In this document: positions 2,610 through 36,119 of the stretch, one piece after another
How the letters are laid out: every line of letters begins with the position of its first letter
How positions within the stretch are numbered: position 1 is the stretch's first letter
Source: a virus
Reading direction: 5' to 3' (one strand)
Length of the DNA: 45,113 nt
Virus record (IMG/VR): IMGVR_UViG_3300032224_000207
Location: 1 to 45,113 of that record
Notes under the pieces: model-generated
Database searches by the model: none
What the model saw: the letters and a program-made list of their open reading frames with translations, nothing else
Told to the model about the DNA's origin: nothing
Position numbers and translations under genes: made by a program

Positions 2610-3943
2610 TAACAATACTCCATATCTTTACAGTAGCCATTCTTTTGAATGTCAGGAAGCAGCTTCTCTAACTTCTTACCTATGTCATCTCTAACCATAG
2701 GGGAGTTAATCATGTGTACTTTCTTCTTGAAGGTCTTGTAGCAAGCTTCACGAGCAGCCTCAACAGTCTTACCAACACCTGAAACAGTCATCACATAACT
2801 ACCGCAGGTAACCAAACAAGGCTCAGTGTTCTTACCATCCTTACCTGGTCCCATTCCCATCTTGACTTCAGACAAGTGAATGTTCTTAGTAGCATCTTCT
2901 ATGGTCATATCGAAGATAGGGTAACCAGTGTTCTCCTTCTTCTTGACATTGCTGTACGGGTAGTCAGGTTGAGACACAACAATACCAACAGCTATGTCCT
3001 TACGTACTTTCAATGTGTCTTTACCATCAAGGCTATCCAACATCCATTGAACAGGGTCACCTAGGTGCAGAGCTTGTTGGATCTGAAACAAAGGCCAACC
3101 AGGTCTAGTAGTGAACTCTAGAGGCCACGGATTACCTTTGTCATCAATGATGCAGTTAACATCAATGTAACCAGAGTAACCAATGCCATGCAAGAAGTCC
3201 TCAAGAGGTTTAAGAACCTTGTCAGCTAACAAAGACTCTTCTGTGTAGCGCATCACAGTACCTTGCTCACCAGTAGCAGGACCATAGTCACCAGACATCA
3301 GTTTCTTAAACTCCCAGTTCTCCAAATAGTATTTAGAGAAACCACCAAGACCAAACCAACCACCAACAGCCATCTCAGAACCAGCATGGAACTCCTGAAG
3401 AACAAACTCACCGTCATAGGCGTTCATCTTCTTCCACTTGTTCAACATAAACACCATATCACGCCAGTCTTTAGAACAATAGCTAAGAGACTTCTCACCA
3501 TCACCAACAGGTTTAGATACGTAACGCTTCTCTTTGTTACTAAGAACAAGAGCAATAGCGTCTTCGTACTTTTTAAACTTCTGCATAGGAATAGTCTTGA
3601 TGCCAGCTCTCTCAAAGATAGCTGACCCGTACTCCCGATCCTGTTCCCAACGAGCACCTTCTACATTGCAACCGTAAATAGGGTAGCCTTTGATGCGATA
3701 TGGTTCTAGTTGTTTAATGTACCTGCTGTTATCAGTAACAAATATTAAGTCAGCCCAGTCCATACTAGGTTCCCAATTAGCAACCTTCTTAAAACAATCT
3801 TCCATGCCATCACCGTTCTCACAGCGAGTACCATCAAAGTTGTTACGCATATACACACGGACATCATGACCATGAGCATTAGACTTGATAGCCAAGTCCA
3901 TAGCAAACCCACAGTCAAACTGATCAATGATTAAGAGTTTCAT
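2609..3943 (-). CDS. ATP-grasp ligase resembling phosphoribosylamine-glycine ligase (PurD/GARS)
   Basis: A 444-residue protein built like an ATP-grasp enzyme. The N-terminal domain starts KLLIIDQ and includes a GCNVEGARWEQDR segment where PurD enzymes have their substrate/pre-ATP loop. A central ATP-binding domain carries YVSKPVGDGEKS and a FVLQEFHAGSEMAVGGWF stretch, and the metal/phosphate region contains YIDVNCIIDD and PLEFTTRPGWP. GARS joins glycine to phosphoribosylamine in purine synthesis, but no other purine gene is present. It sits between a virion polyprotein and a fibre gene with overlapping stop/start codons, so it is expressed late. Its substrate may be purine-related or a protein or nucleotide modification; I cannot tell. 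Confidence 0.7.
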   Translation of the reverse strand: MKLLIIDQFDCGFAMDLAIKSNAHGHDVRVYMRNNFDGTRCENGDGMEDCFKKVANWEPSMDWADLIFVTDNSRYIKQLEPYRIKGYPIYGCNVEGARWEQDREYGSAIFERAGIKTIPMQKFKKYEDAIALVLSNKEKRYVSKPVGDGEKSLSYCSKDWRDMVFMLNKWKKMNAYDGEFVLQEFHAGSEMAVGGWFGLGGFSKYYLENWEFKKLMSGDYGPATGEQGTVMRYTEESLLADKVLKPLEDFLHGIGYSGYIDVNCIIDDKGNPWPLEFTTRPGWPLFQIQQALHLGDPVQWMLDSLDGKDTLKVRKDIAVGIVVSQPDYPYSNVKKKENTGYPIFDMTIEDATKNIHLSEVKMGMGPGKDGKNTEPCLVTCGSYVMTVSGVGKTVEAAREACYKTFKKKVHMINSPMVRDDIGKKLEKLLPDIQKNGYCKDMEYC

Positions 3944-6900
3944 TATTCTGCTTCTTTGTTAAGTTTTTCTCTTCTTTTATCCAAAGCTCTTTTCTCTTGA
4001 TCGTGCTTTGGTGTCCACTCCATGCGTCCTTTTTTAATTTCTTTGTCCCGATACTTCCAAGCATTTTCTTTGGTAGCAAGTTCACGTTCTGCTCGTGCTT
4101 GTTTATTTTGTTCAGCAGTTTTACCGTAGACAGGAAAACCCATTGTTCCTAGTAACGCTCTCTTAGCACCTTCTCCTTCAGGAGCAGCAGCACCAGCTTG
4201 TAGTTGGAAAGGTAAAGCTGTACCAACAGCAGCCTTTAATCTACCAGGACCGCTAAGGTCAACTAACTTAGGAGCAGTAGGACTTGCATACTCAACACCA
4301 CCAAACCCTATGATTAAAGCTTTGGGTATAAACCCCATCTTGTTAGACAAAGTTTTATCTGGATCTGCAATCCAGTGGTAAGGCTCCATAGCGTGTTTCA
4401 TAGCTTGCATAGACGTACCATCAGGCCACTCAACACGGGTTGGATCTTTGTTGTCCCAAACATCTCTACCCGCAGTCATGTTATTAATAGCATTGATTAA
4501 CGTGAAATAAACCAATGCTGTTTTGAACTGATACAACCTAGCATAGTCAGCCTTGGTTGTAGGAGCCATCATGCCTTTAATACCTTCTATGGGTTGCCAT
4601 TTAGTAGGATTTAAGTTTTTAGGTAAAGCAGCAGTAAAGGCACGGACAGTAGAAATAGTCCAATCAGGAGCAAACAAAACTATTTGCAAAGCTCTACGTC
4701 CTTCAGGACTGTAAGCAGCCATAGCCATACGTTTAGCAAACTCACCTTCAGTACGTCTAGCAATATCAAACCAATTTAAACCACCAAAGCTATCGTTAAC
4801 AAAAGAAGCAATTTCTTTACGAGCTGCCATCTCATCAAATGGTCTACCTTCTTTAGCAGCATCTAAGCGAGCTTTTTCAAGGTACGCATCAGCCATCATA
4901 ATTTTGCCGCCAGTATGCAAATAATCCCAGGTGTATTTATCAAACATACCTAGTGTGTATTTCTCAGTAGCAGACAAAGAGCTTTCAAGAATACGGGTTC
5001 TAGGACCAAACTTAGCAATTAAATTGTCAGCAAGTTTTCCAGTAGAACTTAAGATGCCCATAGAAACATCTTCAGGACTTTCTAGTCTCATATTAGACTT
5101 TATCCATAGATCTACGTTGTCACCTAGTCCACCTCTTCTATATTGCTCAACAGCTTGAGAAATAGCAGACAGTTGTAAATCTTTGCCTGTAGTTTTTTTA
5201 GCAGCCAACTCAGTAAGAGGTAATACTATGCCTTCTTTAACGGGAGTCCACAAAGGAATTTTAGAGCTAGACAAAACTTCTAACAAAGACTTGGCATGGA
5301 AAAAAGAACCAATAACGTTAATACGTTTAATAGCTTGAGAAATTGTTCCCAAAGCTTTCATAATCATGCCTGGTTCAGAATCAAACACAAACTTTAAAGC
5401 TGGAACTAAATCAGGATGAATAGCGTAGCCAGCTAAATCTGGGTGATCTATTTGTTTCCAACCATAAGGCAAATCTTCTGGACCACTAATAGGTTTAATT
5501 AAAGACTCACCATTAACGTTTCTAATCTGTTTAATGTTTTCAATTAGATTTTTATTTTCAATAGCTTTTTCAACAGACAAGGCATAGTCTTTGTAGATTT
5601 CTGCAAGGTTGTTTGTCTTAAGTTTAAAACGATAGTCTTTACCATTCTCAGCTAACCACTCGTTAATCCCATTAATATGACTAACAAGATCTTCACGAGT
5701 TTTAAGTCTACGCTCTTGACCGTATTTAGTAGTTGTCTTAGTGCCATCACCAGATGCTTTCTCACCATAACCAAAAGCATCACGCATAAACTCTTCAAGA
5801 GCACCTTTAGGAGCTGCACCTTCTGACACAACATTACGAGCTACGTAGTTCTCATGCCAACCTTTAATGACACCATTCTCTAAAGCTCGTTTACCAAGCT
5901 CGTCCATTAAGGTACGAAACTTAGTTGCAACTTCTTTAGCTTTGCCTTCTAAAGTAACACCCCTATCAATATCAAAACTAAGCTGTTCTAAATTAACATC
6001 TTTACCAGCTAACTCTTTTATGTCAGCAGTATTGTTATGAACAATACGTTCATTAGCTAATTTGTTATTAAGGTTGATGCCAACAAACTCTTCAACTTCT
6101 TTAACAGGTTCAGGCCAAGTCTTTTTAAACTCTTCCCAACCTTTAAAGAACTCAACAGCTTCTACTTCACCATGCTTCTCATAGATGTCTGCGGCTATGC
6201 TTAAAAATTCTTTCTCGTCTTTAACATCACGAGGAGAAGTTTTAGTACGATCAACAACAGGCTCATCAGGTGAGCTAGGCTTCTTAGGAACACCAGCAGG
6301 TTGTTCTTCAGTGATCTTAAAGCGTTCGTCACCTGCTTTACGAAGGTCACCACTGTGTAATCCATCTTCAGGAATTTCTAGTTTAGCCCTAGTCTTAGTT
6401 ACTTCCCTATACTTAGGTTCTGTAGGACCAAACTCTTCTACAAGTTTTAATTTCTTTTCAAGGTCTTTAATTTCTTTTCTAGTATTTGATGCAGTTTGCC
6501 ACGCATCAGTTCGTTCTGCATCAGAAAGTTTTTCTTTTAAAGACTGAAGTTCTTTATTAATGTCTTCTTTTGTTCTAGAAGGAACAGCGACTTCTTTGGC
6601 AGTGTATTCCTCTACAGGTACTTGACCAGTATTAACAGCACGGTCAGCAGCTTCTTGTCGAGTTAAGAACTGACCACGTTCATCTAAAAAACCTTGGTCA
6701 TGGGTGTCTTCTTCTAAAAAAGGTTTTGCTTTGTTTCTTAAAGTTTCTGACAAAACAAATTCGTCAGAACCACCATGACCCTGTGCAGTTCCAAGCAAAT
6801 CTTTTTGAGAAAGATCAACATAAGAAACATTGCCATATTTTTTTGCTTTGTTAATGTCAGTAGTAAACCATTCTCCACCAACAACAGATTCACCTACTTG

Positions 6901-7860
6901 GCCTCCCCCTTCACCACGATATAAACGTACAGCAACATCTTTACTTGGGGCAGGAGTACTTGTAGTATTAATTTTACGGTCCTCGTCATGCTTAGGACCC
7001 ATGCGTTCTATTTCACCAGTCTCTTTGTTCCTAATAGCAGCTTCAACCAAGGGAGATGTAGAAGCTCTTTGATCAGCTTCTTTCTTAACCTTGTCTTTAA
7101 AAATTTCTATTTGTTCAGGAGTAGCGGTAGGAGGAGGTGGTGTAACTTCTTCTTTTTTAATTTCAGGTTTAGGTTTTGTAACAGGAGCAGTTTGTCCCAA
7201 TACTTTTTCACCAAGCTTAGTAGGTTTAGTAAATGCACCAGTAGCAACATCAATAGCTACAGACTTAGGATCAAATACAGGTTGACCTTCAATGGCACGT
7301 TGACCCATACCAATACCAGTCATAATACCAGAGCCTACAGCAGCTTCTTTGATACTTTGAGGTAATCCAGGACGCATAAAAGGACCTAAAGAACCACCAG
7401 TAACAGAACCAGCTAAAGAATAACCAGGATATTCTTGACGTTGCTTCTCTCTTGTGCCTGTAATGTTTGTACCAAACACTTTATCAACAGCACTCTCAAG
7501 ACTAGTGATGCCCTCAGAAGCAAGGTAACCACCAACAATACCGCCCACAACACCAGTAACAGGTTTAGACCAAACAGGTTGGGGAATAGCCATACCAGCT
7601 CTAGCACCAGCTAAAGCAGCAGGAGAAGCACCAACAGACTCTAAATAAGAAGAAGCAAAAGCTCCAGCACCACTAACACGCTCTTCTTGTTTCTTAGTGT
7701 AGTCAGCCATAGACTTCTCTAAGAAGCCTGGTTTAGTTTCTTTAGCAGCAGGTTTAGTTACAACTTCATCATCTTGTCCCCAAGAAGAAGTCTGTTTAGC
7801 AGCAGGTGCAACAGTCTTAGCTGGAGTAACAACCTCATCATTCTGTCCCCAATCAGCCAT
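3943..7860 (-). CDS. Very large polyvalent virion protein with ART-like domain; probable ejection protein
   Basis: A 1305-residue protein in the position of P22 gp16, the last of three ejection-type genes. The N-terminus carries WGQxDEVVT twice (residues 4-12 and 27-35), then Ala/Gly-rich hydrophobic segments (about 60-215). A region at about 308-375 (VRLYRGEGGG, GEWFTTDINKAKKYG, a later SDEFVLSE) resembles the R / S-T / E pattern of ADP-ribosyltransferases seen in phage polyvalent proteins. A charged coiled-coil linker follows (about 430-480). The C-terminal 600 residues look like a large polyvalent-protein-associated domain (SFVNDSFGGLNW, APDWTISTVRAF). It probably enters the host with the DNA. 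Enzyme activity is inference. Confidence 0.65.
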   Translation of the reverse strand: MADWGQNDEVVTPAKTVAPAAKQTSSWGQDDEVVTKPAAKETKPGFLEKSMADYTKKQEERVSGAGAFASSYLESVGASPAALAGARAGMAIPQPVWSKPVTGVVGGIVGGYLASEGITSLESAVDKVFGTNITGTREKQRQEYPGYSLAGSVTGGSLGPFMRPGLPQSIKEAAVGSGIMTGIGMGQRAIEGQPVFDPKSVAIDVATGAFTKPTKLGEKVLGQTAPVTKPKPEIKKEEVTPPPPTATPEQIEIFKDKVKKEADQRASTSPLVEAAIRNKETGEIERMGPKHDEDRKINTTSTPAPSKDVAVRLYRGEGGGQVGESVVGGEWFTTDINKAKKYGNVSYVDLSQKDLLGTAQGHGGSDEFVLSETLRNKAKPFLEEDTHDQGFLDERGQFLTRQEAADRAVNTGQVPVEEYTAKEVAVPSRTKEDINKELQSLKEKLSDAERTDAWQTASNTRKEIKDLEKKLKLVEEFGPTEPKYREVTKTRAKLEIPEDGLHSGDLRKAGDERFKITEEQPAGVPKKPSSPDEPVVDRTKTSPRDVKDEKEFLSIAADIYEKHGEVEAVEFFKGWEEFKKTWPEPVKEVEEFVGINLNNKLANERIVHNNTADIKELAGKDVNLEQLSFDIDRGVTLEGKAKEVATKFRTLMDELGKRALENGVIKGWHENYVARNVVSEGAAPKGALEEFMRDAFGYGEKASGDGTKTTTKYGQERRLKTREDLVSHINGINEWLAENGKDYRFKLKTNNLAEIYKDYALSVEKAIENKNLIENIKQIRNVNGESLIKPISGPEDLPYGWKQIDHPDLAGYAIHPDLVPALKFVFDSEPGMIMKALGTISQAIKRINVIGSFFHAKSLLEVLSSSKIPLWTPVKEGIVLPLTELAAKKTTGKDLQLSAISQAVEQYRRGGLGDNVDLWIKSNMRLESPEDVSMGILSSTGKLADNLIAKFGPRTRILESSLSATEKYTLGMFDKYTWDYLHTGGKIMMADAYLEKARLDAAKEGRPFDEMAARKEIASFVNDSFGGLNWFDIARRTEGEFAKRMAMAAYSPEGRRALQIVLFAPDWTISTVRAFTAALPKNLNPTKWQPIEGIKGMMAPTTKADYARLYQFKTALVYFTLINAINNMTAGRDVWDNKDPTRVEWPDGTSMQAMKHAMEPYHWIADPDKTLSNKMGFIPKALIIGFGGVEYASPTAPKLVDLSGPGRLKAAVGTALPFQLQAGAAAPEGEGAKRALLGTMGFPVYGKTAEQNKQARAERELATKENAWKYRDKEIKKGRMEWTPKHDQEKRALDKRREKLNKEAE

Positions 7861-7865
7861 GATGT

Positions 7866-9266
7866 TTAACCTTTCTTACGTTTGGTTACACCATCTTGTA
7901 TGTAGTAGCTGTTAGGAGGCAGCTTGTCGTACTCTTCTTTAGAAGTAGGTTTAGCAGGATTGTCTTGAGTATATTTGTTACTAGGAACACTAGGGGCAGA
8001 AGCAGCCGTACTAGGCTTACTAGATTTAGGAGCAAGACTTGTGTCCCTTTTAGCAGGTGCTGTCTTCTCAGGAGGTCCATAAGAAGTTGTATCAATGTTT
8101 TCAAGCTCGTGCATAAGGCCTTCATACAGACGGTCTTTTTCTTTTCCTTCAGGCATACCTTCTAAGGAAGCAAGCTTTCTATCAACAACTTCTTTTTTAA
8201 GTTCTTGAAGTTCACGCCAAGCTTTAGTTGATTTAAGTTCTTCTAATTTTTTAGTGTCACCTTTTGCAGCAGCAGCTTTAGCTGCTTGTGTTGCAGAGTC
8301 GCCTTTAACCAAACCGTATAAATAAGACTCTGGTTTACTTTCTTCTGTTACTGCTTTCTTAAAAGCATCTGTAGCTTCTTGAATAGGCTTTTTAAATTCA
8401 AAGTCAACCTTAGCTGCATCTCTACGAAACATACCGTACTGACGGTCTTCTCTTTTAGATTCAGCATCACCACCAGCACCTTTAATTTGCTTGTTTTTAT
8501 AAACTTGTTCTGCAATCTCTAGAGATTTTTGTGCTTTTTCTAATTGTATTTCTAAAACTTTAAGACGCTGCTCATTAGCAGCCATATTGTTTTTACCTTC
8601 ACCGTTGTTCATCAACGCTTCAAGTTGTGCTTTTTGTAGCTTAGGATCTTTCTCTTCAAAGAATCCTGGTATGTGTACCCTAATAGCCCGCTTCATATCT
8701 TCAGGCATCTTATCAAGTAGCCCTTGAAACTGTTGATCTGTAGCACCACGAACAGTAGCTAAACCATCACCAATTTGTCGTCTATTAATTTCAAATTCTT
8801 TTAATTTATTTACAAGAGCTTTGGCTTGCTCTGAGTCAGCAATCTTAATAAGCCTTTCACCATCAGCAGTATCAATACCCATAACAGCCGCAGCTAATTT
8901 ACGGCTCTGATCTTCTGGGGTCAGCTTTGCATACTCAGGATCTGAAGTAAGTTTAGTAATGGCTGCCTTCTTTTCAGAAGTCATATCAATCTTAGCTTGA
9001 CTAACAAGGTTAGCTAGCTTTGTTTGTTGTATAGCTGCTTGTTCTTGTTCTATTTTTAATGCAGCTTCTTGAGGAGCATACAAAGCTTTAATTCGATCTT
9101 GTTCAAGTTTAAGTTGAACTTCTTCAGGAGCAGCACGATCCTCTGCTAACTTACGTGTAGCAGCAGCTTGAGTTAAGTCTTGTATATACGGAGCTTTAGC
9201 TACGTTCTCTTGTAACTGCTCAACAGCTCTACTGCCAGCAGCTACATCAGACATTAAGAATGCCAT
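7866..9266 (-). CDS. Coiled-coil internal virion / ejection protein (P22 gp20 position)
   Basis: A 466-residue, Ala/Glu/Lys/Gln-rich, almost entirely helical protein with long predicted coiled coils (about 10-110, 225-265, 290-400) and a Pro/Ser/Thr-rich C-terminal tail (about 400-466). I see no catalytic motif. It sits between a gp7-like protein and the giant polyvalent protein, with only a few bases between genes, matching the order of P22 ejection proteins gp7-gp20-gp16. By position it should be an internal capsid protein released with the DNA. Sequence similarity to gp20 itself is not claimed. Confidence 0.6.
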   Translation of the reverse strand: MAFLMSDVAAGSRAVEQLQENVAKAPYIQDLTQAAATRKLAEDRAAPEEVQLKLEQDRIKALYAPQEAALKIEQEQAAIQQTKLANLVSQAKIDMTSEKKAAITKLTSDPEYAKLTPEDQSRKLAAAVMGIDTADGERLIKIADSEQAKALVNKLKEFEINRRQIGDGLATVRGATDQQFQGLLDKMPEDMKRAIRVHIPGFFEEKDPKLQKAQLEALMNNGEGKNNMAANEQRLKVLEIQLEKAQKSLEIAEQVYKNKQIKGAGGDAESKREDRQYGMFRRDAAKVDFEFKKPIQEATDAFKKAVTEESKPESYLYGLVKGDSATQAAKAAAAKGDTKKLEELKSTKAWRELQELKKEVVDRKLASLEGMPEGKEKDRLYEGLMHELENIDTTSYGPPEKTAPAKRDTSLAPKSSKPSTAASAPSVPSNKYTQDNPAKPTSKEEYDKLPPNSYYIQDGVTKRKKG

Positions 9267-9282
9267 AACATATTCCTTTTAA

Positions 9283-9888
9283 TTAAAAGTTAATCAAACC
9301 AAAAGGATCAAAGTTTTGTGGTCCACTCATACCACCACCGCCACCATAGCCGCTTCCTTGACTTGCGTTGTATATACCACCAATACCTTGGATAACAGCA
9401 CCAAGACCTTGACCTTGAGCTTGTTGATACTGTTGACCAGCTTGTAACGCAGAGCTTTGTTGAGGCAATGTAGTAGCACCAGAAGCAGTAGCAAGCCTGT
9501 TCATATAGTCAGTCATAAAGCCATAGTAGCCTTGTTGTGCTTGTTTATCTAAAGCAATCTGTTCATTACCAGATCTCATCATTCCAGATGCAGCAGCACT
9601 GCGTTTAGAAGCTTCTAATGAAGGATCCATAACACCAGTTTTAAATTGACTATACCCAGGAGCTTTTGTAATGTCTTGTGTACCACCTTGTGTTAAAGCG
9701 CCAGCATATAAACCACCAAGAGTGTCTCGGTACTTTACAAAAGGATCAACAACTTGTTGAGCAGCAGCAGTAGCACCTCCAGCACTTACACTGCCTCCAC
9801 CACCACCGCCTCCACCAAATAAAGAGTTAAGACCTCCAGCAATACCTACAACAGATGCTATTGTGCCTAATGAGATTCCAGCAGACAT
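9283..9888 (-). CDS. Internal virion / DNA transfer protein (P22 gp7-like position)
   Basis: A 201-residue protein with a hydrophobic Gly/Ser N-terminus (residues 3-24) and a run of eight glycines (about 25-32). The central helical part has an ASGMMRSGNEQIALDKQAQQGYYGF segment typical of podovirus DNA-transfer proteins, followed by Gln/Gly/Ala-rich sequence and a second glycine run near the C-terminus. Its start overlaps the end of the cupin-SET gene by 22 bases. Likely part of the ejected trans-envelope channel. The assignment rests on composition, that conserved segment and synteny. Confidence 0.6.
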   Translation of the reverse strand: MSAGISLGTIASVVGIAGGLNSLFGGGGGGGGSVSAGGATAAAQQVVDPFVKYRDTLGGLYAGALTQGGTQDITKAPGYSQFKTGVMDPSLEASKRSAAASGMMRSGNEQIALDKQAQQGYYGFMTDYMNRLATASGATTLPQQSSALQAGQQYQQAQGQGLGAVIQGIGGIYNASQGSGYGGGGGMSGPQNFDPFGLINF

Positions 9889-10769
9889 TTGTCAGCTCCC
9901 TTCCAAAGATTGTTTACTTGTATAACTTGTCTGTAATCTAAGGTGATCTCTTCACCCAAGTCACCTCCAACCATGCCTGATATGTCTCGTATTGCTACTA
10001 GGAACATATCTCCTAAATCATTTACAAATGCCATTGCATTAGGAGTTTTAGAATGATTGACAAGGTATCCAGCAGGAGTCCTACAACCACCTAATCTCAT
10101 TGGTGCAATAAGGCTATGTTGTTTAATTACAGCGGTTGAGAACATTCCTTTACCTTGAATAGGAGAATCTCCAGCACAGATGCTGTAGCTACCATCAGGA
10201 AAGGGAATGCAATCTTTTCTGTGTTTAGACGCTAACTCGATGTCCTCTAGAGTCCAACCAGACTCTTCAACCATCTTTAAGAAGTCTTGTCGATCTTCTT
10301 CATGCAGAGGATATTCTTTAAACAGTTTTTGTTCTTGGTGTTGCTTAAGAATATCTGGGGATTTAAACAGTGTTGACTCAAGATACTCAACGTCAGTACT
10401 ATTTGTTACATAGATATTTTGCCACACAACATCCTCTAAGGTAAAGCCTACTTTGCTTCCAGCCTTAGCTACAAACATGTGTGGAGCTACCAAAGTCTGG
10501 GTAGAACCATCTCCGTCAATGACATTAATACTGCCCTTAAGCAGTACGTTCATGTGCTCTGAGACATGCTCTTGACCAACAATTAGGGTGTTTTTAGGGT
10601 AGTGGGCTTCCCTAATATACAAACCACCACCAAACCTATGAATAATAGAGTTAGAAGTCTGTTCCCCTTTCATAAGGGCTTTAGCCAACTCTAGTTTGCT
10701 ATCTGTGTTACGAAGGTCAAAACCTTCTTTAGTAGCAACAGAGTTAATAGCTTCTACAACATCATCCAA
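9867..10769 (-). CDS. Cupin-like + SET-domain fusion protein (putative protein lysine methyltransferase)
   Basis: A 300-residue two-domain protein. Residues about 40-125 look like a cupin/double-stranded beta-helix (YPKNTLIVGQEHVSEHMNVLLKGSINVIDGDG). Residues about 195-285 carry SET hallmarks: GKGMF (206-210), NHSKTPN (238-244), a DI..G turn (262-) and GEEITLDY (272-279), which in SET enzymes form the S-adenosylmethionine pocket, the pseudoknot and the catalytic Tyr. SET domains methylate protein lysines. The gene lies between the gp10-like tail gene and the ejection proteins, where P22 has gp26/gp14, and ends overlapping the gp7-like gene. The target could be a virion or a host protein. Domain call fairly firm, substrate unknown. 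Confidence 0.72.
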   Translation of the reverse strand: MDDVVEAINSVATKEGFDLRNTDSKLELAKALMKGEQTSNSIIHRFGGGLYIREAHYPKNTLIVGQEHVSEHMNVLLKGSINVIDGDGSTQTLVAPHMFVAKAGSKVGFTLEDVVWQNIYVTNSTDVEYLESTLFKSPDILKQHQEQKLFKEYPLHEEDRQDFLKMVEESGWTLEDIELASKHRKDCIPFPDGSYSICAGDSPIQGKGMFSTAVIKQHSLIAPMRLGGCRTPAGYLVNHSKTPNAMAFVNDLGDMFLVAIRDISGMVGGDLGEEITLDYRQVIQVNNLWKGADKCLLESH

Positions 10770-10771
10770 GG

Positions 10772-12241
10772 TTATCTCCTATAACGTCCACCACCAACAG
10801 CTTGTTCTTGATCCATCTCACCAATCCTAAAATCTACTTCAGCTCCATCAAGTCTTAATGGACAGTTACTAGTAACAAGGAACTCCCAAGCTCTACGTCT
10901 GTCAGCACCACTGAGATATAACTGTGATCTAGGAGCATTTAAGTCTATAGCCCTGTAGCTTGACCAAGTAACGTAGTCATCCCCAGAGTGACGTATTTGC
11001 ATTGTTCCTGCTGTCTTATCACCCACAATCTCTAACCTTCCATAGAATTTACGTTTAGTAGTTCCATTGTCTATGATGTCCGTAACAGTACGGCAATAGA
11101 TAGGTTGGTTGTTATCTCGGTATGTATTAACATCAAAGTAATACAAAGTAGCTGTATCGTCATCTAAAGTATACGCTACCCCACCTAATGATGCAAAAAA
11201 AGCAGGACGGAAGTAAGACTCTTGGTAAGTACCAGGGTAGGGTTGGTCATTACTTTGAATAGAGAATTGAGTCCATGTGTACCACATCTTCTCATTCAAA
11301 TCAAATACCAAAGTCTTTTGGGTGTTATGCAAAGTCAATATGTACAAAGTATGCCCGTCTATGGTGTAGCAATAGGCAGATACTTGTCCTAAGTTATCAG
11401 CTTCTAAATGACGGTCTACAGAAGCTGTAGAGACACGGACAGGAGATACTCCATCCATAAGGTAAACAGAACGGCTATTGGTCTTTGTAGCTCCTATCCA
11501 AAGCACTGTGTTACTAGTAGCAACAATACTATCTCCGTTAGCACAACCAATTTCAGAAGTATAGCTAGCAGCTAAAGCTAAAGGAGAACCAGTAGCGTTA
11601 CCAGCATCATAATAAAACTGAGTGCTAACAGCACCAAAAGCTATCAGGTAGTTCAAGTGCTTAGCAATACCAACAAGAGTATCAGTAGTCTGTTCAAAGC
11701 TTAGGTAGCTAAGAGCATCCCAAGTAGTTGGGTCACCAACGTTAGAGTTGTATATACGATTGTTACTAGTACCAATAAACAAATAGTTGTCTAAGTACAC
11801 AGCACCAGATACGTAAGGAGATGAAGGTAACGTAGTCATTGCCACAGATGAACCAGACTGGTTGTACAAGTATCCGTTAACTTTGTTATGGAAGAACAAA
11901 TAGGTATCAAGAAACGTCTTAACAAAGTAGCTTTGACTAGTTGAAGCAGACGTAGTACCCAAGGTAGTCACAGCATAAGAAGAGCTAGGATTAACTTGGT
12001 AAATAGTGTTATTAATAACAGCAATAAGTTTATTGTTAAATGGGGTTAACCCTTGGCTAGGTGTGTAAGCTGGAGGAGTAATAGCTACAATTTGTTTAGC
12101 AGCTACAAGCCCTGGACGTTTAATTAACTCCCGCTTCTGATCTCTTGTCTCAAAAAAACAATTAGATGAATAAGAATCTTTAGCAAAGCTACCTGTTCTG
12201 CTTTCAATAGGTTGAGTAAGCGGTATACGTTCTGTAGCCAT
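10772..12241 (-). CDS. Packaged-DNA stabilisation / tail hub protein (P22 gp10-like)
   Basis: A 489-residue protein with the opening SRTGSFAKDSYSSNCFFE, then RPGLV, and a string of Tyr/Thr/Ser-rich beta blades (AVYLDNYLFIGTSNN, EKMWYTWTQF) as in the P22 gp10 family. These proteins bind under the portal-adaptor complex, close the tail after packaging and carry the rest of the tail. Length agrees with P22 gp10 (about 470). It directly follows the gp4-like adaptor gene with a two-base gap, the same order as in P22. No truncation is seen. Confidence 0.8.
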   Translation of the reverse strand: MATERIPLTQPIESRTGSFAKDSYSSNCFFETRDQKRELIKRPGLVAAKQIVAITPPAYTPSQGLTPFNNKLIAVINNTIYQVNPSSSYAVTTLGTTSASTSQSYFVKTFLDTYLFFHNKVNGYLYNQSGSSVAMTTLPSSPYVSGAVYLDNYLFIGTSNNRIYNSNVGDPTTWDALSYLSFEQTTDTLVGIAKHLNYLIAFGAVSTQFYYDAGNATGSPLALAASYTSEIGCANGDSIVATSNTVLWIGATKTNSRSVYLMDGVSPVRVSTASVDRHLEADNLGQVSAYCYTIDGHTLYILTLHNTQKTLVFDLNEKMWYTWTQFSIQSNDQPYPGTYQESYFRPAFFASLGGVAYTLDDDTATLYYFDVNTYRDNNQPIYCRTVTDIIDNGTTKRKFYGRLEIVGDKTAGTMQIRHSGDDYVTWSSYRAIDLNAPRSQLYLSGADRRRAWEFLVTSNCPLRLDGAEVDFRIGEMDQEQAVGGGRYRR

Positions 12242-12243
12242 GC

Positions 12244-13008
12244 TTACCGTCCATAAGAGTTGTTAGACGTAGATCTAAAGTCTGGTTGGAAGAATGTACT
12301 AGAAACTTCAACGTTCCAATCATCAAGTTGAGTTCTATACGTTTGTGCTCTTGTAGCAATCTCTTGTCTAGCGTTCATAGGAACACCGTACTCTAAAGCT
12401 AATTGGTCAGCTAAGTTCCATACCAAACAGTTCATCCACTCGTTAGGGAAGTCTGGTATGTCAGTAGCTAACGTCATGTCATTCAAAGGCATTTGAGCAA
12501 TTATGTGTAGCTCTAAGTTAGCTTGAGAGTAAGCATCAGGTGTTAGGTATACATACAAGATACCGTTAGTCTTTTTACTATCGTAAAAGATTGTGTTAGC
12601 AGTACCAGTAGAAAACTTAGAACCCAATACGTTGTACTCTTGTTTAGAAACAATCATCACAGGTGTATCTATGACTGGAGTACTAGTAGTAGTACGGTAG
12701 AACCCCTGTATAACTTTAAGAGGTCTATCTGTAATAGCTACAGTAGGTGCTAACGAGTCATACATTAAATCAGAACTATTGCCACCTAATGTGTAAGTTG
12801 TTTTTGCATTAGTTAAAGGAACAATTAGCTCTGATACTTTCCATAACTTAAGACCATCAGTATTAAGTTGCTTAACAAGCAAGTTTAAAGACATATTGGC
12901 ATTAGCAATAGTCTCTGCATCAGGTGTACTACCAACTTCAAGTGTCCCTAACTTTCTTAAAGCTAAAGAAATGATTTGATCACGGTTAATGGAGTAGTTA
13001 GAAGACAT
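12244..13008 (-). CDS. Head-to-tail adaptor (P22 gp4-like tail accessory factor)
   Basis: A 254-residue protein starting with an INRDQIISLALRKLGTLEVG segment, followed by ANMSLNLLVKQLNTDGLKLW, both typical of the P22 gp4 / tail accessory factor family that docks a dodecamer below the portal. The rest is mixed alpha/beta with a helical C-terminus. P22 gp4 is shorter (166 residues), but extended versions are common in environmental podoviruses. The gene precedes the gp10-like gene, as expected, and follows the fibre cluster, which in this phage is inserted between capsid and adaptor. Confidence 0.75.
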   Translation of the reverse strand: MSSNYSINRDQIISLALRKLGTLEVGSTPDAETIANANMSLNLLVKQLNTDGLKLWKVSELIVPLTNAKTTYTLGGNSSDLMYDSLAPTVAITDRPLKVIQGFYRTTTSTPVIDTPVMIVSKQEYNVLGSKFSTGTANTIFYDSKKTNGILYVYLTPDAYSQANLELHIIAQMPLNDMTLATDIPDFPNEWMNCLVWNLADQLALEYGVPMNARQEIATRAQTYRTQLDDWNVEVSSTFFQPDFRSTSNNSYGR

Positions 13009-13172: not shown

Positions 13173-14258
13173 TTATAGCTCCGCAGAAAGAGTGATTGCA
13201 TTTGTATTGTTTTGACGCATTAAATACCCTCTAGAGGCTGTTAAACCAGTAAAGTTTCCTAACAGAATCACGGTGGCATTATCATTTCCAGATAGCGCAG
13301 TTAATGACGTACTGCTTTGAGCGTAATCATTTGAACCATCTGAAATTGAAATAACGCCTTGTTGTCCTGCTGTTGGAGAGGTACGCATATCAACACGCAT
13401 TGCAACGCTTGCCACAATACTAGTCGTACTATTTCCTCCACCGCTAATTGAGCGAGACAATTGATAGTACCTCTGACACAAAGTCAACTCAGTACCATAA
13501 GGTCTGTAATCAAAGCTCGTTGCTGTTGAGCCTTTTTCTAGCTGTACACCTGTGATGTAGAAAGTGGCTGTGTTTGTGCCGACTACAGAAGTTGCGCCTG
13601 TGGCTGTTATGTAATTTCCAGCACCTGACCATGCACCAGCCGTTCCGCTATAAGTAGAACCACCGCCAAGACCAAAAGATAAATTTATTCCAATCCCGTT
13701 TGTTGTTAACCAAGTTCCACTTGTATCGCCAGCAATAGTTACGCTAATTGTTGTCCAAGTGTTTGCTGTTGGTATTGAATAAGTAAAAGGGTATGCTCTA
13801 GCAGCTGTACTATTTCTTAATGCGCCGCCAAAAGTCCCAGTTAAACTTGAATAAACTCGAAACGATAAAGTAACAGTTGCGGCAGATGCTGTACCCCAAG
13901 CAAGGTCTGCTATGTTAAATCCCTCTATAGGTTGGAATATTGAAAATATATCACTTGAAGTTACTGCGTAGGCAGAACTTGAAGTTACGCCAAGATAATT
14001 TGCAAATCCTGCTGGCGGGGTAACTGAGCCAGCATTTTGTTGGGCTGTAAATTTAGATGCGGCAGTAGCATTAAAACACCATCTATCTAAACCGTAAGAG
14101 CCATTTGTCGGCGTAACACTTGCCCCCGCATTCCTTTGGTCAATTGCCATTGCACCATTGATGATGCGGTTCTTGAAGCCAAAACCAGTAGCGGCTGTGT
14201 TTTGCGATGACGAATCGTTAAACACTACGCCTGATGTGCCGTTGATTGTGACTGACAT
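13173..14258 (-). CDS. Tail appendage / adhesin with FKNRIINGAMAIDQRNAG module
   Basis: A 361-residue beta-rich protein. The N-terminus MSVTINGTSGVVFND is a short virion-attachment stretch like the one in the 15384-15926 product. A GFKNRIINGAMAIDQRNAG segment (about 27-45) starts a module widespread in phage receptor-binding proteins, and YITGVQLEKGSTATSFDYRPY marks a carbohydrate-binding-like jelly roll near residue 235-260. Its start overlaps the stop of the S74 fibre (TAATG). Base use here has more GCG/CGC/GCC than flanking late genes, suggesting recent exchange. Receptor unknown. Confidence 0.65.
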   Translation of the reverse strand: MSVTINGTSGVVFNDSSSQNTAATGFGFKNRIINGAMAIDQRNAGASVTPTNGSYGLDRWCFNATAASKFTAQQNAGSVTPPAGFANYLGVTSSSAYAVTSSDIFSIFQPIEGFNIADLAWGTASAATVTLSFRVYSSLTGTFGGALRNSTAARAYPFTYSIPTANTWTTISVTIAGDTSGTWLTTNGIGINLSFGLGGGSTYSGTAGAWSGAGNYITATGATSVVGTNTATFYITGVQLEKGSTATSFDYRPYGTELTLCQRYYQLSRSISGGGNSTTSIVASVAMRVDMRTSPTAGQQGVISISDGSNDYAQSSTSLTALSGNDNATVILLGNFTGLTASRGYLMRQNNTNAITLSAEL

Positions 14259-15226
14259 TATTTATTCTCCAGTGCTGTGATTCGTGCTGTCAGGGCTGTG
14301 ATAAGGGCTTGTTGTTCTTGGATGGCGGCTGTCAGATAAGGAATAAGTTTGTCAAGATTAACAGCCCAAGGTTCTTGCCCTTGCGCTAACTCATCGCCTT
14401 TGCCATCATTTGGTTTATAAACACACTCAGGAAATACCTCATTTAACTCTTGGGCAATAAAGCCATAAGATTGTTCATCATTTTCTTTAAACTTAAACTT
14501 GCTTGGTTTTAATTGCATGACTTTTTTAACGCCATCAGATACAGCGTGAATATCTGTTTTTATGCGTCTATCAGAACCAGCAAAGAATCCTGCGTTACTT
14601 GCGCCATTGGATGCAATAAATCCAGTTGATGCCGTACCGTTATTTGTAAGAAACTGAATATACTTGTTTGTACCAGCAGTAACTGTTGCGGAAACTTTAA
14701 TTAATTGAAATCCCACAGTTGCATCAGCCGTAGCGGTAGTCTGAATTGTTCCGTTGGCTACTGTCACGTTACCGCTGGAGTCGATAGTCATCGCCAGCGC
14801 GCCGTTTGTTCCAAACTGCATTGGGTATGCGCCAAATGAATTCAGAACAGAGGCATAGGCACTGCTTCCAGTTAATAAACTTGCGCCTGTGCTTGATTCT
14901 CTGCCAATATTGAAACTGCCGCCAGTATTAGAAAAACCAAGAAAACCATAACTTGTGCCTGTCGATGGTTTTATGCGAACGTATGGGCCTGTGCTTGCTT
15001 GAACATCAAGATTAGCACCTGGCGAAGCAGTACCAATACCCACATTACCAGATGAATCAACCCTGACACGCTCAGTGCTTGTGCCTGACGCTGTGGTGTA
15101 TATAGCTAACTGTCCATTGCTTGAGCCGCTGTCAATACCAGCAATCTGAGCCGCTATGGGCGTGTTACCAGAACCAAACGTCAGCGTGTCTGACGATGTG
15201 TTGGGTATAGTAATTTTGATACTCAT
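14258..15226 (-). CDS. Tail fibre/spike with C-terminal S74 intramolecular chaperone
   Basis: A 322-residue protein. The first two-thirds are beta-structured shaft sequence with the repeated motif RVDSSGNVGIG and DSSGNVTVANG. The C-terminal 100 residues are an endosialidase-type S74 chaperone: SDRRIKTDIHAV (about 221-232), YGFIAQELNEVFPE (about 256-269), and a final helix ending ITALTARITALENK. S74 domains fold the trimeric fibre and then cut themselves off, with the Ser of the SDRR region as nucleophile. The start overlaps the previous small gene by four bases. Confidence 0.8.
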   Translation of the reverse strand: MSIKITIPNTSSDTLTFGSGNTPIAAQIAGIDSGSSNGQLAIYTTASGTSTERVRVDSSGNVGIGTASPGANLDVQASTGPYVRIKPSTGTSYGFLGFSNTGGSFNIGRESSTGASLLTGSSAYASVLNSFGAYPMQFGTNGALAMTIDSSGNVTVANGTIQTTATADATVGFQLIKVSATVTAGTNKYIQFLTNNGTASTGFIASNGASNAGFFAGSDRRIKTDIHAVSDGVKKVMQLKPSKFKFKENDEQSYGFIAQELNEVFPECVYKPNDGKGDELAQGQEPWAVNLDKLIPYLTAAIQEQQALITALTARITALENK

Positions 15227-15384
15227 GCTAATTGCTCCTCTGTAGGTCTAGCCAATGTTGGATGTTCCCACTTTGCAATGTAGTCACCTTTGCCATCAGA
15301 ATCGTTTTGCAAGCAAATGGTGTTTAAAAAGTCTGCGTCTTGCAGTTCAGGATAAAGTGCTTTGATTTTGTCGTATAAATTCAT
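15223..15384 (-). CDS. Small XkdW-like fibre-linked protein (53 residues)
   Basis: Translation most likely starts at the second of two adjacent ATGs (15384), six bases after AAGGAG, in an ATGA overlap with the stop of the upstream fibre gene. The product starts MNLYDKIKALYPELQDADF and contains NDSDGKGDYIAKWEHP near its end, the pattern of XkdW-type small tail proteins. It sits between two fibre genes and overlaps both. A fibre-assembly accessory role is inferred. Confidence 0.65.
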   Translation of the reverse strand: MNLYDKIKALYPELQDADFLNTICLQNDSDGKGDYIAKWEHPTLARPTEEQLA

Positions 15385-15926
15385 CATGTGCTCCTTACCA
15401 ATACACCTTGAAACCATGTAACAGTTCCTGTATTAACAGTAAATGTTAATGTGCCTGTTCCAGTCGCCAACCCATAAAGCTCTACATAATCAGTAGAGCC
15501 GTTAAAATTAATTAATGCACTTACAACAGAATAAAAACCTGTCCCCGAAGCTGCGGCGCTAGTAAAATTTCCATCTTTAAACCTAGCGCCGTTTTTATAA
15601 ATTGAAGCTATACAACTTCCTGTTATTGCAGTAGTTGCAGCTATACCAATTTGTCCACTTATCTGATAGTATCCCGCAACAGTAGGCGTAAACCGATAAT
15701 TTGTGGCGTTGTCATAGTTACCATTTGTGTCAAATTCTTCTGTGTTAATTTGTGCTTTTGTAAAAGTTGCTGTTGTTACTGTTTGAGCAGAAGCTAAATA
15801 CGCGCTAAACGCAGGGCCAGTTCCAGCAACACCAGTAGCTAACTCAGGTTGTGTAATGATTGCGTCAGGCAAACCACCAGCACTGATACCAGTGATTGTG
15901 CCTGTTCCGTTTATTGTGATTGCCAT
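15384..15926 (-). CDS. C1q/TNF-like fibre tip protein
   Basis: A 180-residue protein. Residues 1-20 (MAITINGTGTITGISAGG) are the phage-binding stretch shared with neighbouring fibres. Residues about 40-180 look like a C1q/TNF jelly roll: AFSAYLASAQTV, FDTNGNYDNATNYRFTPTVAGYYQISGQIG, and repeated SI.KNG strands ending in WFQGVLV. Such domains trimerise and bind saccharide or protein receptors. The gene lies in the fibre cluster with overlapping or short junctions. Codon use resembles that of the two fibres downstream of it. Confidence 0.65.
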   Translation of the reverse strand: MAITINGTGTITGISAGGLPDAIITQPELATGVAGTGPAFSAYLASAQTVTTATFTKAQINTEEFDTNGNYDNATNYRFTPTVAGYYQISGQIGIAATTAITGSCIASIYKNGARFKDGNFTSAAASGTGFYSVVSALINFNGSTDYVELYGLATGTGTLTFTVNTGTVTWFQGVLVRST

Positions 15927-15935
15927 GATTTATCC

Positions 15936-16619
15936 TTAAAGAACTACCCAAACGCTACCACTGGGAACTGTGACTGTGATGCCTGAGTTAACTGTTATTG
16001 GTCCAGTAGACATAGCATTTTTGCTTGTAGTGATTGTATAGTTACTAGTAACAGATTGACTGTTCTCATAAAACACATCATCAGTACCACCACCTGTAGC
16101 ACCACCACTAGATACCCATGTACTAGTAGTAGCGTTATAAACTTCTATCTTTCCAATGTTACTATTAAATCCTGACAGACCAGCAGTAGGACTTGATGGA
16201 CGAGTAGCAGTAGTCCAAGGACCACCTACAGAACCAACTGAATTTGTTGTACGACCAGAAAATGTGTTAGTAGAACTAAATGTATTTGAACCACTAAATG
16301 TATTAGCTTCATCTAGTTTAGGAAAATCGTTAAGAGAAGCAGCAACTAAACGTAGTTCAACTTTATCTCCAAGTGACCAACTGTTAGCAGTGCTTCCATC
16401 TTGTCCACGAACAATAGTAAAAGTATCAGTAGAACGGGCTGTAACTTTAATGATCTCTACTGTGCCTACTGTGTTAGTAAGGGTGCAATAAAAATAGTCA
16501 GTACCACCAAGAGTAGGAAACAAAGCTCCAGTACCAGCAGCTACTAATAAACTAGTCACAGAAGCATTGATAGCTTCACCTAGTGTAGTTGTAGCATTGT
16601 TAGTAAATTTCATTCCCAT
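15936..16619 (-). CDS. Tail fibre shaft protein
   Basis: A 227-residue protein. The N-terminal half (about 1-90) resembles the baseplate/fibre-attachment fold seen in many phage fibres (TDYFYCTLTN, FTIVRGQDGSTANSWSLGD). A repeat-rich NTFSGSNTFSSTNTFSG segment (about 105-123) resembles a triple-helix shaft, and the C-terminus is Thr/Ser/Val-rich (ITVNSGITVTVPSGSVWVVL). No enzymatic motif. A proximal fibre or adaptor for the downstream adhesins is plausible. Confidence 0.65.
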   Translation of the reverse strand: MGMKFTNNATTTLGEAINASVTSLLVAAGTGALFPTLGGTDYFYCTLTNTVGTVEIIKVTARSTDTFTIVRGQDGSTANSWSLGDKVELRLVAASLNDFPKLDEANTFSGSNTFSSTNTFSGRTTNSVGSVGGPWTTATRPSSPTAGLSGFNSNIGKIEVYNATTSTWVSSGGATGGGTDDVFYENSQSVTSNYTITTSKNAMSTGPITVNSGITVTVPSGSVWVVL

Positions 16620-32756: not shown

Positions 32757-33206
32757 ATGGATGCTCACATGATGTCCACTTTGTATGCTGCTGCTACTGA
32801 GAGTCTTGTCTCAGATGCTTCGGCTACAAGTACATTCGAGAAGATGATAGCTGTTGCGTTTACGCATAGCTCAGTTGAAACGTTTGCTAAAGACTTGAAA
32901 GACACAGAAAAACAAATCAAAAAAGACTTTGATGTTAGCTCTATGCCTGGTCCTTGGAGATCAGCCAAGTCTGTGATTCACGGTGCTATGAAGCTCAGCA
33001 TCAAACTCATTGATGACAACGGAAGCTATGTTGGTAAGACATTTCTTCAGAACAAGATCAAAGAACTGAAGACTCCCAAAGAAGAAATGAGTGCTGAAGA
33101 TTACGCCAACAAAGTTATTAAGAACTTGATGAATGTTCCTGAAGGCATGGATGCTGTCAAAGTGTTCAAGCTGGTCAAAGACTTTGTGAATGCGAGTGGT
33201 AAGTAA
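32757..33206 (+). CDS. Partner protein of the VWA/AAA+ cassette (149 residues)
   Basis: The ATG at 32757 is chosen because GAGGGAG lies seven bases upstream; an earlier ATG (32733) lacks such a signal. The helical product starts MDAHMMSTLYAAATESLV and has a TEKQIKKDFDVSSMPGPWRSAKSVI segment in the middle. Its stop overlaps the start of the HExxH-VWA gene (TAATG), and the AAA+ gene follows, so the three are translated together. It carries no recognisable domain; it may be a substrate adaptor or regulator of the VWA-AAA+ pair. Confidence 0.65.
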   Translation: MDAHMMSTLYAAATESLVSDASATSTFEKMIAVAFTHSSVETFAKDLKDTEKQIKKDFDVSSMPGPWRSAKSVIHGAMKLSIKLIDDNGSYVGKTFLQNKIKELKTPKEEMSAEDYANKVIKNLMNVPEGMDAVKVFKLVKDFVNASGK

Positions 33207-35002
33207 TGCTAACCAAAGGCATTGAGGTCATGAAGTACATACGTGCAAGTGCTGGTAGAGCTGGCATTTCCGTTGTATTTGAAGACGCTAACCAACCTAG
33301 GCATGATGGTAAAACTATCTTCTTGCCAAGGATTGTTACTAGTACCACAGACTTAGAACTCAAGCAGCTAATGGCATCAACAGATCACGAAGTGGCACAT
33401 GATCGCTATAGCTCGTTTGATATTCTAAAGAAGAAGAAACTAGATCCCCAGGGTATATTGATGTTCGTATGGAACTTCTTAGAAGACTCCAGAATCAACT
33501 ATATCGAAGCTATGGAGTATCGTGGCTTCAGGGAGAACTGGGATGATTGCAGCTCGTTGCTTATCGAAAACATCATTCGTAAAAGCAGCAAGAACACTGG
33601 TCCCATAGCAACACTCATCACAGCTTTACTTCATTGGGAAACAACTTTGACTAGTTCTGTCTTTCCTCGGATAGAGTTAGTTGTAAGCAAAGCAACCCCT
33701 GATAAAAAGGTTCTGGATGTTCTTAATAACTTTACTGATCGTCTTGCTGATTGTTACAAAATTCTGGATAAAGAAGTAGGTACTGAAGCAACATATCAGT
33801 TGGCTGTAGACATCCTCAAAGAACTTAGTGAAGAGTGCAAAGAAGAACTGAAGCCAATACCTGTTAAGCCTGTTAAGGGTGATGGCGAAGGTGAACTAAA
33901 AAAGTCTGGTGGAGAAGAAAAGGTAGAGGGAGAAGCCAAAGGAAAAGACAAGGGTGAAGGAGAAGACACCAAAAGCAAAGATGACGAATACAAAGTCATT
34001 GAGCTAAAAATCACAGAAGAAGAGTTAGAGGCTTATTCTTTGTCTATGCACAACGAAAGTGGTGAAGACATGGGTAAAGTCGGTATTAACTTTGAACCTG
34101 TAAAAACAAAAGATGGTTGGGATCTAACTGACTACGATAAATACATCGTTGTTGATTATCCTAAAAACACAAGCCCTGCTGATTACTTTTTGGCTCTCAA
34201 AACAACTTCTTTTCTTTCTGAATACCGAAAACTTGTTGAACCAGAACTTGTCTCACAAGAGAATTTTGCTCAACAAGTACGCAGGTTGATTCAAATAAAA
34301 GCAAAAGTGCAACGACAGTACGGTGTCAAGAAAGGCAAACTAGATCAATCTAGGTTGTCTCGTATCTGTTTTGATGCACCAGGGTTCAATGAACGTGTGT
34401 TTAAGAACAAAATTGACAATAAAACGCTTGATGCAGCTATCACGGTACTCGTAGATATGTCTGGGTCTATGCAAGGAATGAAAGCGTACTACGCTCTTGC
34501 TTCTACTTTATTGGTTAATGAAGTTTGTTCAACTCTAAACATACCTCTTGAAATTGTTGGTTTTACTGACGGAAAAATTAATTCATATACTGATTGGTGT
34601 CCAGTCATGTATATTTACAAAAGTTTTTCTGATTTAAAAGTTGACTCAGATCATCTAAAAAAGTATTTCCAAGTAAGTAGTCAGTGGATGACAGGTAATC
34701 CTGACGGTGAAAACATTCTTTGGGCGCATGATCGACTGATTAGACGCAAAGAGAAGAAAAAGCTATTGGTTGTTATGTCTGATGGCAGTCCAGCAGCTTC
34801 TAAATCATCTTCAGGTATTGGTAGATTTACAGAGAAAGTAATCAGAGAAATAGAAGCTGCAAAGATTGTTGACATCTATGGTTTGGGTTTGTGTAGTAAA
34901 GAAGTACAGATTTACTACAAAGCACACAGCGTAGTCAATCAACCGCAAGAAATACCAAGCAAGTTGTTAGAACTCATAGAAAGGAAGATCATTAATGTCT
35001 GA
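33206..35002 (+). CDS. VWA-domain protein with HExxH motif (CobT-like / metalloprotease-VWA)
   Basis: A 598-residue protein. The N-terminal part has DHEVAHDR (HExxH at 61-65) and FLEDSRIN with Glu93 about 28 residues later, the pattern of a gluzincin-type zinc protease or a CobT-like N-terminus. Residues about 220-262 are a Lys/Glu/Gly low-complexity linker. The C-terminal VWA domain has the MIDAS motif DMSGS (417-421) and a FTDG turn. The next gene encodes a MoxR/CobS-like AAA+ ATPase, the usual partner of VWA proteins, and the genes overlap by eight bases. The pair probably acts as an ATP-driven remodelling or metal-insertion machine; the target is unknown. Confidence 0.75.
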   Translation: MLTKGIEVMKYIRASAGRAGISVVFEDANQPRHDGKTIFLPRIVTSTTDLELKQLMASTDHEVAHDRYSSFDILKKKKLDPQGILMFVWNFLEDSRINYIEAMEYRGFRENWDDCSSLLIENIIRKSSKNTGPIATLITALLHWETTLTSSVFPRIELVVSKATPDKKVLDVLNNFTDRLADCYKILDKEVGTEATYQLAVDILKELSEECKEELKPIPVKPVKGDGEGELKKSGGEEKVEGEAKGKDKGEGEDTKSKDDEYKVIELKITEEELEAYSLSMHNESGEDMGKVGINFEPVKTKDGWDLTDYDKYIVVDYPKNTSPADYFLALKTTSFLSEYRKLVEPELVSQENFAQQVRRLIQIKAKVQRQYGVKKGKLDQSRLSRICFDAPGFNERVFKNKIDNKTLDAAITVLVDMSGSMQGMKAYYALASTLLVNEVCSTLNIPLEIVGFTDGKINSYTDWCPVMYIYKSFSDLKVDSDHLKKYFQVSSQWMTGNPDGENILWAHDRLIRRKEKKKLLVVMSDGSPAASKSSSGIGRFTEKVIREIEAAKIVDIYGLGLCSKEVQIYYKAHSVVNQPQEIPSKLLELIERKIINV

Positions 35003-36119
35003 AACAGAAACAAAGTCAAAGGTCGAAGACCTTGTTAAATCAAAAATCAAAGAGGCAATGGAAAAGCGTAAAGTCTCAACAACAGACACAACAACATACG
35101 ACATAGCTTCTGATACCTATGTGACTGAAACACCAACAGCTCCTGTAATAACACGACCTGAACTCAAACCAGGTCAAATCTATTTCTCTGACTTGTTCAA
35201 AGAAATTTGGATTATTGACAAGGAAGACTTTGGTGTCACGATGTTTCATGAAACTACTTGGGATGAACGTATCGCTTCATTTGTTCCTAGTATCAATCCT
35301 ACTTATGTCATTGACAAAGACTTGGCTGCAAACGTTTTAAGAGCATGGGAGTTAAATGAAAGAGTACTCTGTTACGGGCCTACGGGGGCTGGTAAATCTA
35401 GTCTTATTGAGCAGCTTTGTGCTCGTACTGGTCGCCCTTTCGTTCGGGTTAATTGTACTGGGGACATGGATACCTCAATGATCTTTGGTCAATTGACAGC
35501 TAAAAGCGGTTCAACAATCTGGGTAGATGGTGCTGTAACAGAAGCTGTACGTTATGGTGCTGTATTCGCTTGGGACGAGTGGGACGTAACTCCTCCAGAG
35601 ATCTCTATGGGTCTTCAGTGGCTCTTAGAGGACGATGGCAAACTCTTCTTGAAAGAAATGCCTGGTAGTACCAAAGACAAACAGATTGTCCCTCACGAGC
35701 ATTTCCGTATCGTAGCTATTGGCAACACACAAGGTCAAGGCGATGATACAGGAGCACATGCTGGTACTAACGTTCAAAACTCTGCAACACTTGACCGTTT
35801 TGGTACTGCTGTTTACGTTGATTACCTTGATGCTTCTATCGAAGAAACAATGTTGACCAACAGGTATCCAGACACAATTACCAAGAAAACAGCCAAAGAG
35901 CTTGTCAAACTTGCTAACTTGATTCGTCAAGGTTACAAAGCAGCTCAGTTCAATCTAACAATGTCTCCACGTTCATTGTTTAGCATCTGCAACAAAGTTT
36001 CTTTTGGGATGACTTTAAGAACTGCATTCAATCTTGTTTACCTGAACAAGCTAAACGACACACAGCGTAAGGTTGCTGACGAGTTGTTTACCAAGATCTA
36101 CGGTAACAAAGAATTCTAA
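34995..36119 (+). CDS. MoxR/CobS-type AAA+ ATPase
   Basis: A 374-residue protein. An N-terminal helical tail (1-50) is followed by an AAA+ core with Walker A GPTGAGKS (128-135), Walker B VFAWDEWD (190-197), sensor-1 AIGNTQG, and an Arg finger region TLDRFG. This is close in pattern to CobS, the ATPase of aerobic cobaltochelatase, and to phage CobS-like proteins. No cobalamin genes are nearby. The gene overlaps the VWA gene by eight bases and is followed by a terminator-like hairpin. A role in host or virion protein remodelling with the VWA partner is most likely. Confidence 0.8.
   Translation: MSETETKSKVEDLVKSKIKEAMEKRKVSTTDTTTYDIASDTYVTETPTAPVITRPELKPGQIYFSDLFKEIWIIDKEDFGVTMFHETTWDERIASFVPSINPTYVIDKDLAANVLRAWELNERVLCYGPTGAGKSSLIEQLCARTGRPFVRVNCTGDMDTSMIFGQLTAKSGSTIWVDGAVTEAVRYGAVFAWDEWDVTPPEISMGLQWLLEDDGKLFLKEMPGSTKDKQIVPHEHFRIVAIGNTQGQGDDTGAHAGTNVQNSATLDRFGTAVYVDYLDASIEETMLTNRYPDTITKKTAKELVKLANLIRQGYKAAQFNLTMSPRSLFSICNKVSFGMTLRTAFNLVYLNKLNDTQRKVADELFTKIYGNKEF

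Follow-up and report, generated by a model that had tools for sequence, protein, structure and literature searches.

SET-domain proteins of phages are known from annotation only in the sources that we searched, where we found neither a functional paper on them nor a described role for SET-mediated lysine methylation in phages. Outside phages, PBCV-1 encodes and packages the SET protein vSET, which methylates host histone H3 (PMC7019647).

The protein examined here, in which a cupin barrel precedes a SET domain, belongs to family phrog_34170. The same two-domain protein is found in Rhodoferax phage P26218, phage zth2-2 and Manatee Spring podoviruses, with 38-43% identity to the copy of the window, the term used below for the whole 45,113-nucleotide stretch of viral DNA that was analyzed (IMG/VR record IMGVR_UViG_3300032224_000207). 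P26218 and the Manatee Spring genome MW202744 share the order gp10, cupin-SET, next late gene, and the MW202744 record names its cupin-SET gene after the PBCV-1 methyltransferase structure. For the late region, the references are P22, with the gene order gp4, gp10, gp26, gp14, gp7, gp20, gp16, and T7, with the order gp11, gp12, gp13, gp14, gp15, gp16 (gp16 lying beyond the stretch inspected).

Architecture of the cupin-SET protein

The fusion gene lies at 9867..10769 on the minus strand and encodes 300 amino acids from a TTG start. This start is plausible because an AGGAG Shine-Dalgarno motif (10776..10780, minus strand) sits 6 nt upstream, inside the 3' end of the gp10-like gene, and because relatives start at the same position, with TTG, GTG or ATG. 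In PHROGs, the product matches the unannotated family phrog_34170 over its full length (E 1.9e-66), and its N-terminal part matches phrog_12032 ('short tail fiber') and phrog_24280 ('tail fiber adhesin'). An NCBIfam search returned a chance match only, and PADLOC gave no match that would label the protein as defense or counter-defense.

The AlphaFold2 (AF2) model, computed from a 35-sequence alignment, reached a pLDDT of 91 and a pTM of 0.87. When compared to the PDB with Foldseek, one half of the model retrieved RmlC-like cupins and the other the SET methyltransferases SETD8 and MLL1, confirming that the product consists of a cupin barrel, a linker of two helices and a SET domain. A preliminary description of this DNA, made from the letters alone, had already proposed an N-terminal cupin and a C-terminal SET domain marked by GKGMF, NHSKTPN and GEEITLDY, and had called for structure prediction; the three motifs are present as described, and both folds are predicted.

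The SET domain (residues ~190-285; 9915..10202, minus strand), delimited by Pfam, profile, AF2 and Foldseek evidence, is compact and almost devoid of the SET-I insert. In the window protein it exceeds the Pfam SET (PF00856) cut-off (23.1 versus 22.4 bits); a SET match was obtained in all 35 relatives scanned (best E 1.1e-7), and a family profile retrieves MLL1 at E 7e-6 and PBCV-1 vSET at E 2e-3. The signature comprises a GxG SAM-binding motif (G206-K-G208; 10146..10154), the N238-H239 pair of an NHxxPN motif (10053..10058) and an E274-x-T276-x-D-Y279 motif with a catalytic-type tyrosine (9933..9950), all on the minus strand. Nine positions never vary among 35 aligned proteins, namely G206, G208, R230, T231, N238, H239, E274, T276 and Y279. 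The SAM-pocket motifs, on which the preliminary description had made its SET reading depend, are therefore kept across the family and not lost in homologues.

GxG and NH are separated by 32 residues in each of the 103 proteins in which the spacing could be counted, about half of the ~66 residues read off the profile alignment for MLL1 (2w5y), which indicates that SET-I is nearly absent from the family; no full-size SET-I subdomain was found between the two motifs. Since SET-I, which usually contributes to the substrate groove, is a variable insert, its small size here marks a variant rather than a loss of the SET core. Judging from motifs and model, the domain looks intact, if minimal, with an intact SAM-binding signature, and is predicted to be a lysine methyltransferase.

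The cupin half (residues ~41-121; 10407..10649, minus strand) adopts an RmlC-like jelly roll, the double-stranded beta-helix being recognized by both AF2 and Foldseek, and our audit of its metal site found it degenerate. Neither of the cupin metal motifs, G(X)5HXH(X)3-4E(X)6G and PXG(X)2H, is present: fused proteins carry H72 and N74 (HxN) at the expected HxH, H68 is often replaced by glutamine, and their cupins have no second-motif histidine. H72 is the sole metal-site histidine that is invariant in fused proteins, and it is replaced in many relatives that consist of the cupin alone. Since many members of the cupin fold have no metal site, membership in the fold stands despite the missing motifs. 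The cupin likewise has no HxD/E...H iron site of the JmjC or 2OG-type demethylases, and a role as demethylase or dioxygenase, the former being one of the options first put forward, is ruled out by the lack of a metal site, including any HxH...E...H arrangement. We thus read the cupin as a scaffold or docking barrel. A helical linker follows (residues ~127-182; 10224..10391, minus strand; AF2 secondary structure), which is kept together with the SET domain in relatives.

Distribution of the fusion and arrangements of its parts

The same fusion was found at about 100 related viral loci, answering the suggestion that it be sought elsewhere; NH is present in all of them and strict GxG and ExTxDY in nearly all. 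One scan of viral contigs retained 80 loci, with relatives 37-88% identical, and GxG, NH, ExT and the final tyrosine persist down to 34% identity. A second scan, made with the SET part alone, returned only cupin-SET fusions among the proteins analyzed, apart from a gene cut by the contig end and a frame-broken copy (L275). Median dN/dS values in the window's clade were 0.066 for the cupin, 0.18 for the linker and 0.14 for the SET domain; these are rough, synonymous divergence being high, and show that both cupin and SET are conserved under purifying selection. The presumed rarity of such proteins in phages did not hold, as freshwater podovirus contigs commonly carry the fusion and a few isolates have it too. 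Rhodoferax phage P26218 and Pseudoalteromonas phage PH1 are cultured carriers, in whose virions methyl-lysine can be sought.

The PH1 fusion (L091:5986-6816) has a cupin of the type of Thalassomonas phage BA3, and further fusions of the PH1 type were found (L208-L217). In the cupin tree it falls, with strong support, inside a cupin-only group formed by BA3 and Shewanella phage X14, a nesting that is most simply explained by two fusions: SET has probably joined a second cupin lineage independently. A single origin of all fused proteins is disfavored by two well-supported branches, but a single clade of fused proteins is not rejected by the AU test (p 0.083; short alignment). Two further arrangements were encountered. 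In Paraburkholderia ferrariae (L306:3078-4525), cupin and SET are encoded by separate genes that overlap, and in a Comamonadaceae contig (L305:3773-4339) a SET gene without cupin, with a helical stretch similar to the cupin-SET linker, lies directly before a gp7-like gene; close relatives of these two SET proteins were not found in the viral contigs searched. Together with the PH1 fusions, these cases indicate that SET goes with this genomic slot and with its cupin partner in several arrangements. The domain is thus widespread, conserved and locked into the ejection operon, and was probably joined twice to the same kind of cupin.

The slot before the ejection genes

In the window, the cupin-SET gene is directly preceded by a gp10-like head closure gene (Hc3; 10772..12241; phrog_578, E 6e-50), itself preceded by a gp4-like adaptor gene (12244..13008; phrog_637, adaptor Ad3, E 7.5e-4). 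Downstream come three putative ejection-protein genes, gp7-like (9283..9888), gp20-like (7866..9266; assigned by position only, with no family match) and gp16-like (3943..7860; assigned by position and a weak phrog_839 match), all five genes being on the minus strand. The 9283..9888 ORF has no family match of its own; we name it gp7-like because of where it lies and because it resembles the genes that relatives have there, with which it shares its start and a Gly-rich pattern and which match DNA-ejection families. The gp16-like product of 1305 amino acids is almost without family match. Elsewhere in the window, several tail-fiber-like genes (13173-16619, minus strand) lie before the adaptor gene, one of them matching the C-termini of distal tail fibers, and a CobT-type VWA gene and a CobS-like AAA_5 ATPase gene (33206-36119, plus strand) belong to a plus-strand replication block.

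At its 3' end, the cupin-SET gene overlaps the gp7-like ORF by 22 nt, and the AAGGGAG Shine-Dalgarno motif of that ORF lies within the cupin-SET gene. This overlap, and a location immediately ahead of the first ejection gene, bear out the proposal that the gene is made together with the ejection block. The preliminary description had placed it where P22 has gp26 and gp14; its position matches that of gp14, the gene before gp7, and identity with the tail needle gp26 is ruled out by the model, which shows a cupin and a SET domain rather than a trimeric coiled-coil needle.

In most loci surveyed, the cupin or cupin-SET gene stops between about -30 and +5 nt from the start of the next gene. Among 47 aligned proteins, made up of 45 such next genes and the references P22 gp7 and T7 gp14, 26 match phrog_598 and six match phrog_21132, both DNA-ejection families. 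In many podoviruses, those of Vibrio and Shewanella among them, the cupin also occurs alone, as a protein of ~140-185 amino acids whose gene lies after gp10 or tail tubular B and ahead of the first ejection gene. Examples are BA3, X14, Amaethon, a Vibrio lentus phage, Vibrio phage VvAW1, a Manatee Spring phage, SnaP-R1 and 234P9; an additional gene separates gp10 from the cupin in BA3, X14 and other cupin phages. The database name of this cupin, "short tail fiber", looks like a mislabel spread by annotation transfer. An exception to the placement is Alteromonas phage H4/4, whose cupin lies between the RNA polymerase and portal genes and not before an ejection gene; between the same two genes, a GNAT-like protein has been reported in phage JG068 (PMC3765740).

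The P22 occupant of the slot, gp14 (DUF2824; L128:2501-2953, with copies in L309-L388), was modeled from viral-contig copies at pLDDT 86. The model matches GNAT acetyltransferases, best SpeG, with a query TM of 0.65-0.80 among the hits listed, so that a GNAT fold is predicted for gp14. Its acetyl-CoA motif looks degenerate by eye, and acetyltransferase activity is for that reason not implied. For T7 gp13, a link to GNAT has been published (PMC6775973); we looked for sequence homology between gp13 and P22 gp14 and could not demonstrate it. Within the limited flanks available, no gp14-like or gp13-like ORF occurred at any of 225 cupin or cupin-SET loci, and no cupin at any of 163 gp14/gp13 loci, a pattern that, given these flanks and the differing phage lineages, is suggestive only.

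Candidate substrates and competing readings

We tentatively favor the reading that the protein serves late morphogenesis in a P22-like podovirus, its cupin aiding ejection or tail assembly and its SET domain methylating a late protein. From the same slot, the cupin half would do the accessory job of P22 gp14 or T7 gp13, helping ejection or tail proteins to assemble; while the particle is being assembled, it would also deliver the SET domain to a substrate, a late protein of which at least one lysine would be methylated. The two folds, the roughly 100 conserved fused loci, the slot next to the ejection genes, the cupin-only, SET-only, split and PH1 cases, the GNAT prediction for gp14 and the 0/225 and 0/163 counts support this assembly role. 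It is weakened by the near absence of SET-I, by the H4/4 placement, by the vagueness of what is known of gp14 and gp13 function and by the distribution of lysines. Among 24 aligned gp7-like proteins of the window's clade, no lysine is conserved, which disfavors the idea that the adjacent ejection protein is methylated at a fixed site; these proteins, including that of the window (9283-9888), are very lysine-poor (~2%). Five lysines are conserved in gp10 and six in gp4 in that clade, and few of those in the gp20- and gp16-like proteins can be aligned. Nozzle gp10, adaptor gp4 or variably placed lysines of the gp20/gp16-like proteins are better candidates. With the simplest target gone, the substrate may be another phage protein or a host protein.

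The missing gp7-like lysine makes room for a host target, and the enzyme might be an effector carried by the virion, docked in the particle by its cupin and passing into the cell along with the ejection proteins to methylate a host protein. The position of the gene among those of the injected proteins and the precedent of packaged vSET in PBCV-1 (PMC7019647) would fit; yet a folded beta barrel seems ill-suited to threading through the portal, and cupin-only relatives fill the slot without any effector, so that it is not an effector slot as such. We regard this as possible but rather unlikely. Less likely still is an enzyme made late that acts on a host protein in the cytoplasm, the link to the cupin merely setting its level and timing: coupling to the late genes is indeed tight, and SET genes stand alone in cyanomyophages and a Pelagibacter phage, but timing would not call for a SET domain that joins or adjoins the cupin, the gp7-like gene or both in separate arrangements.

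The same lysine result, the very small SET-I and the many podoviruses that use the cupin without SET could also be accommodated by a dead SET domain serving as a structural or binding module. The retention of GxG, NH, ExT and the final tyrosine in distant relatives, the dN/dS of the SET domain and the probable second fusion event argue against a loss of catalysis, which we consider improbable. That the protein is a short tail fiber or an adhesin ending in an unusual SET tip, as the phrog_12032 and phrog_24280 names would have it, is hardly credible: these labels appear transferred, the AF2 model has no fiber-like repeat, the window has separate tail-fiber genes (13173-16619), and the compactness and strong conservation of the cupin are not those of a receptor-binding tip.

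PBCV-1 vSET (A612L, PDB 1n3j) resembles cupin-SET as a small viral SET protein, the profile match covering the part from NH to DY. Unlike cupin-SET, it stands alone without a cupin, belongs to a eukaryotic virus and methylates histone H3K27, and its SET-I is the longer of the two. Cyanophages P-RSM6 and P-SSM7 and Pelagibacter phage Kolga encode small stand-alone SET proteins of ~99 amino acids, distantly similar and without cupin; the P-RSM6 gene (L307:4058-4357, 99 amino acids, Pfam E 1.7e-11) lies directly before baseplate gene gp25. BA3, X14 and VvAW1 present the converse case, a homologous cupin in the same slot without SET. P22 gp14 and T7 gp13 are, like cupin-SET, small late accessory proteins encoded directly before gp7 or gp14, but their fold, a predicted GNAT in the case of gp14, is unrelated to that of cupin-SET and no homology was found. 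It is conceivable, if doubtful, that podophages keep a modifier slot before the first ejection gene, filled according to lineage by unrelated amine-modifying enzymes (GNAT-fold gp14/gp13 or cupin-SET), with lysine modification of late or ejected proteins as a general assembly step. The placement points to chemical modification of proteins during particle assembly or delivery in some short-tailed phages, and the GNAT prediction for gp14 makes the little-understood gp14 and gp13 genes testable in standard laboratory phages.
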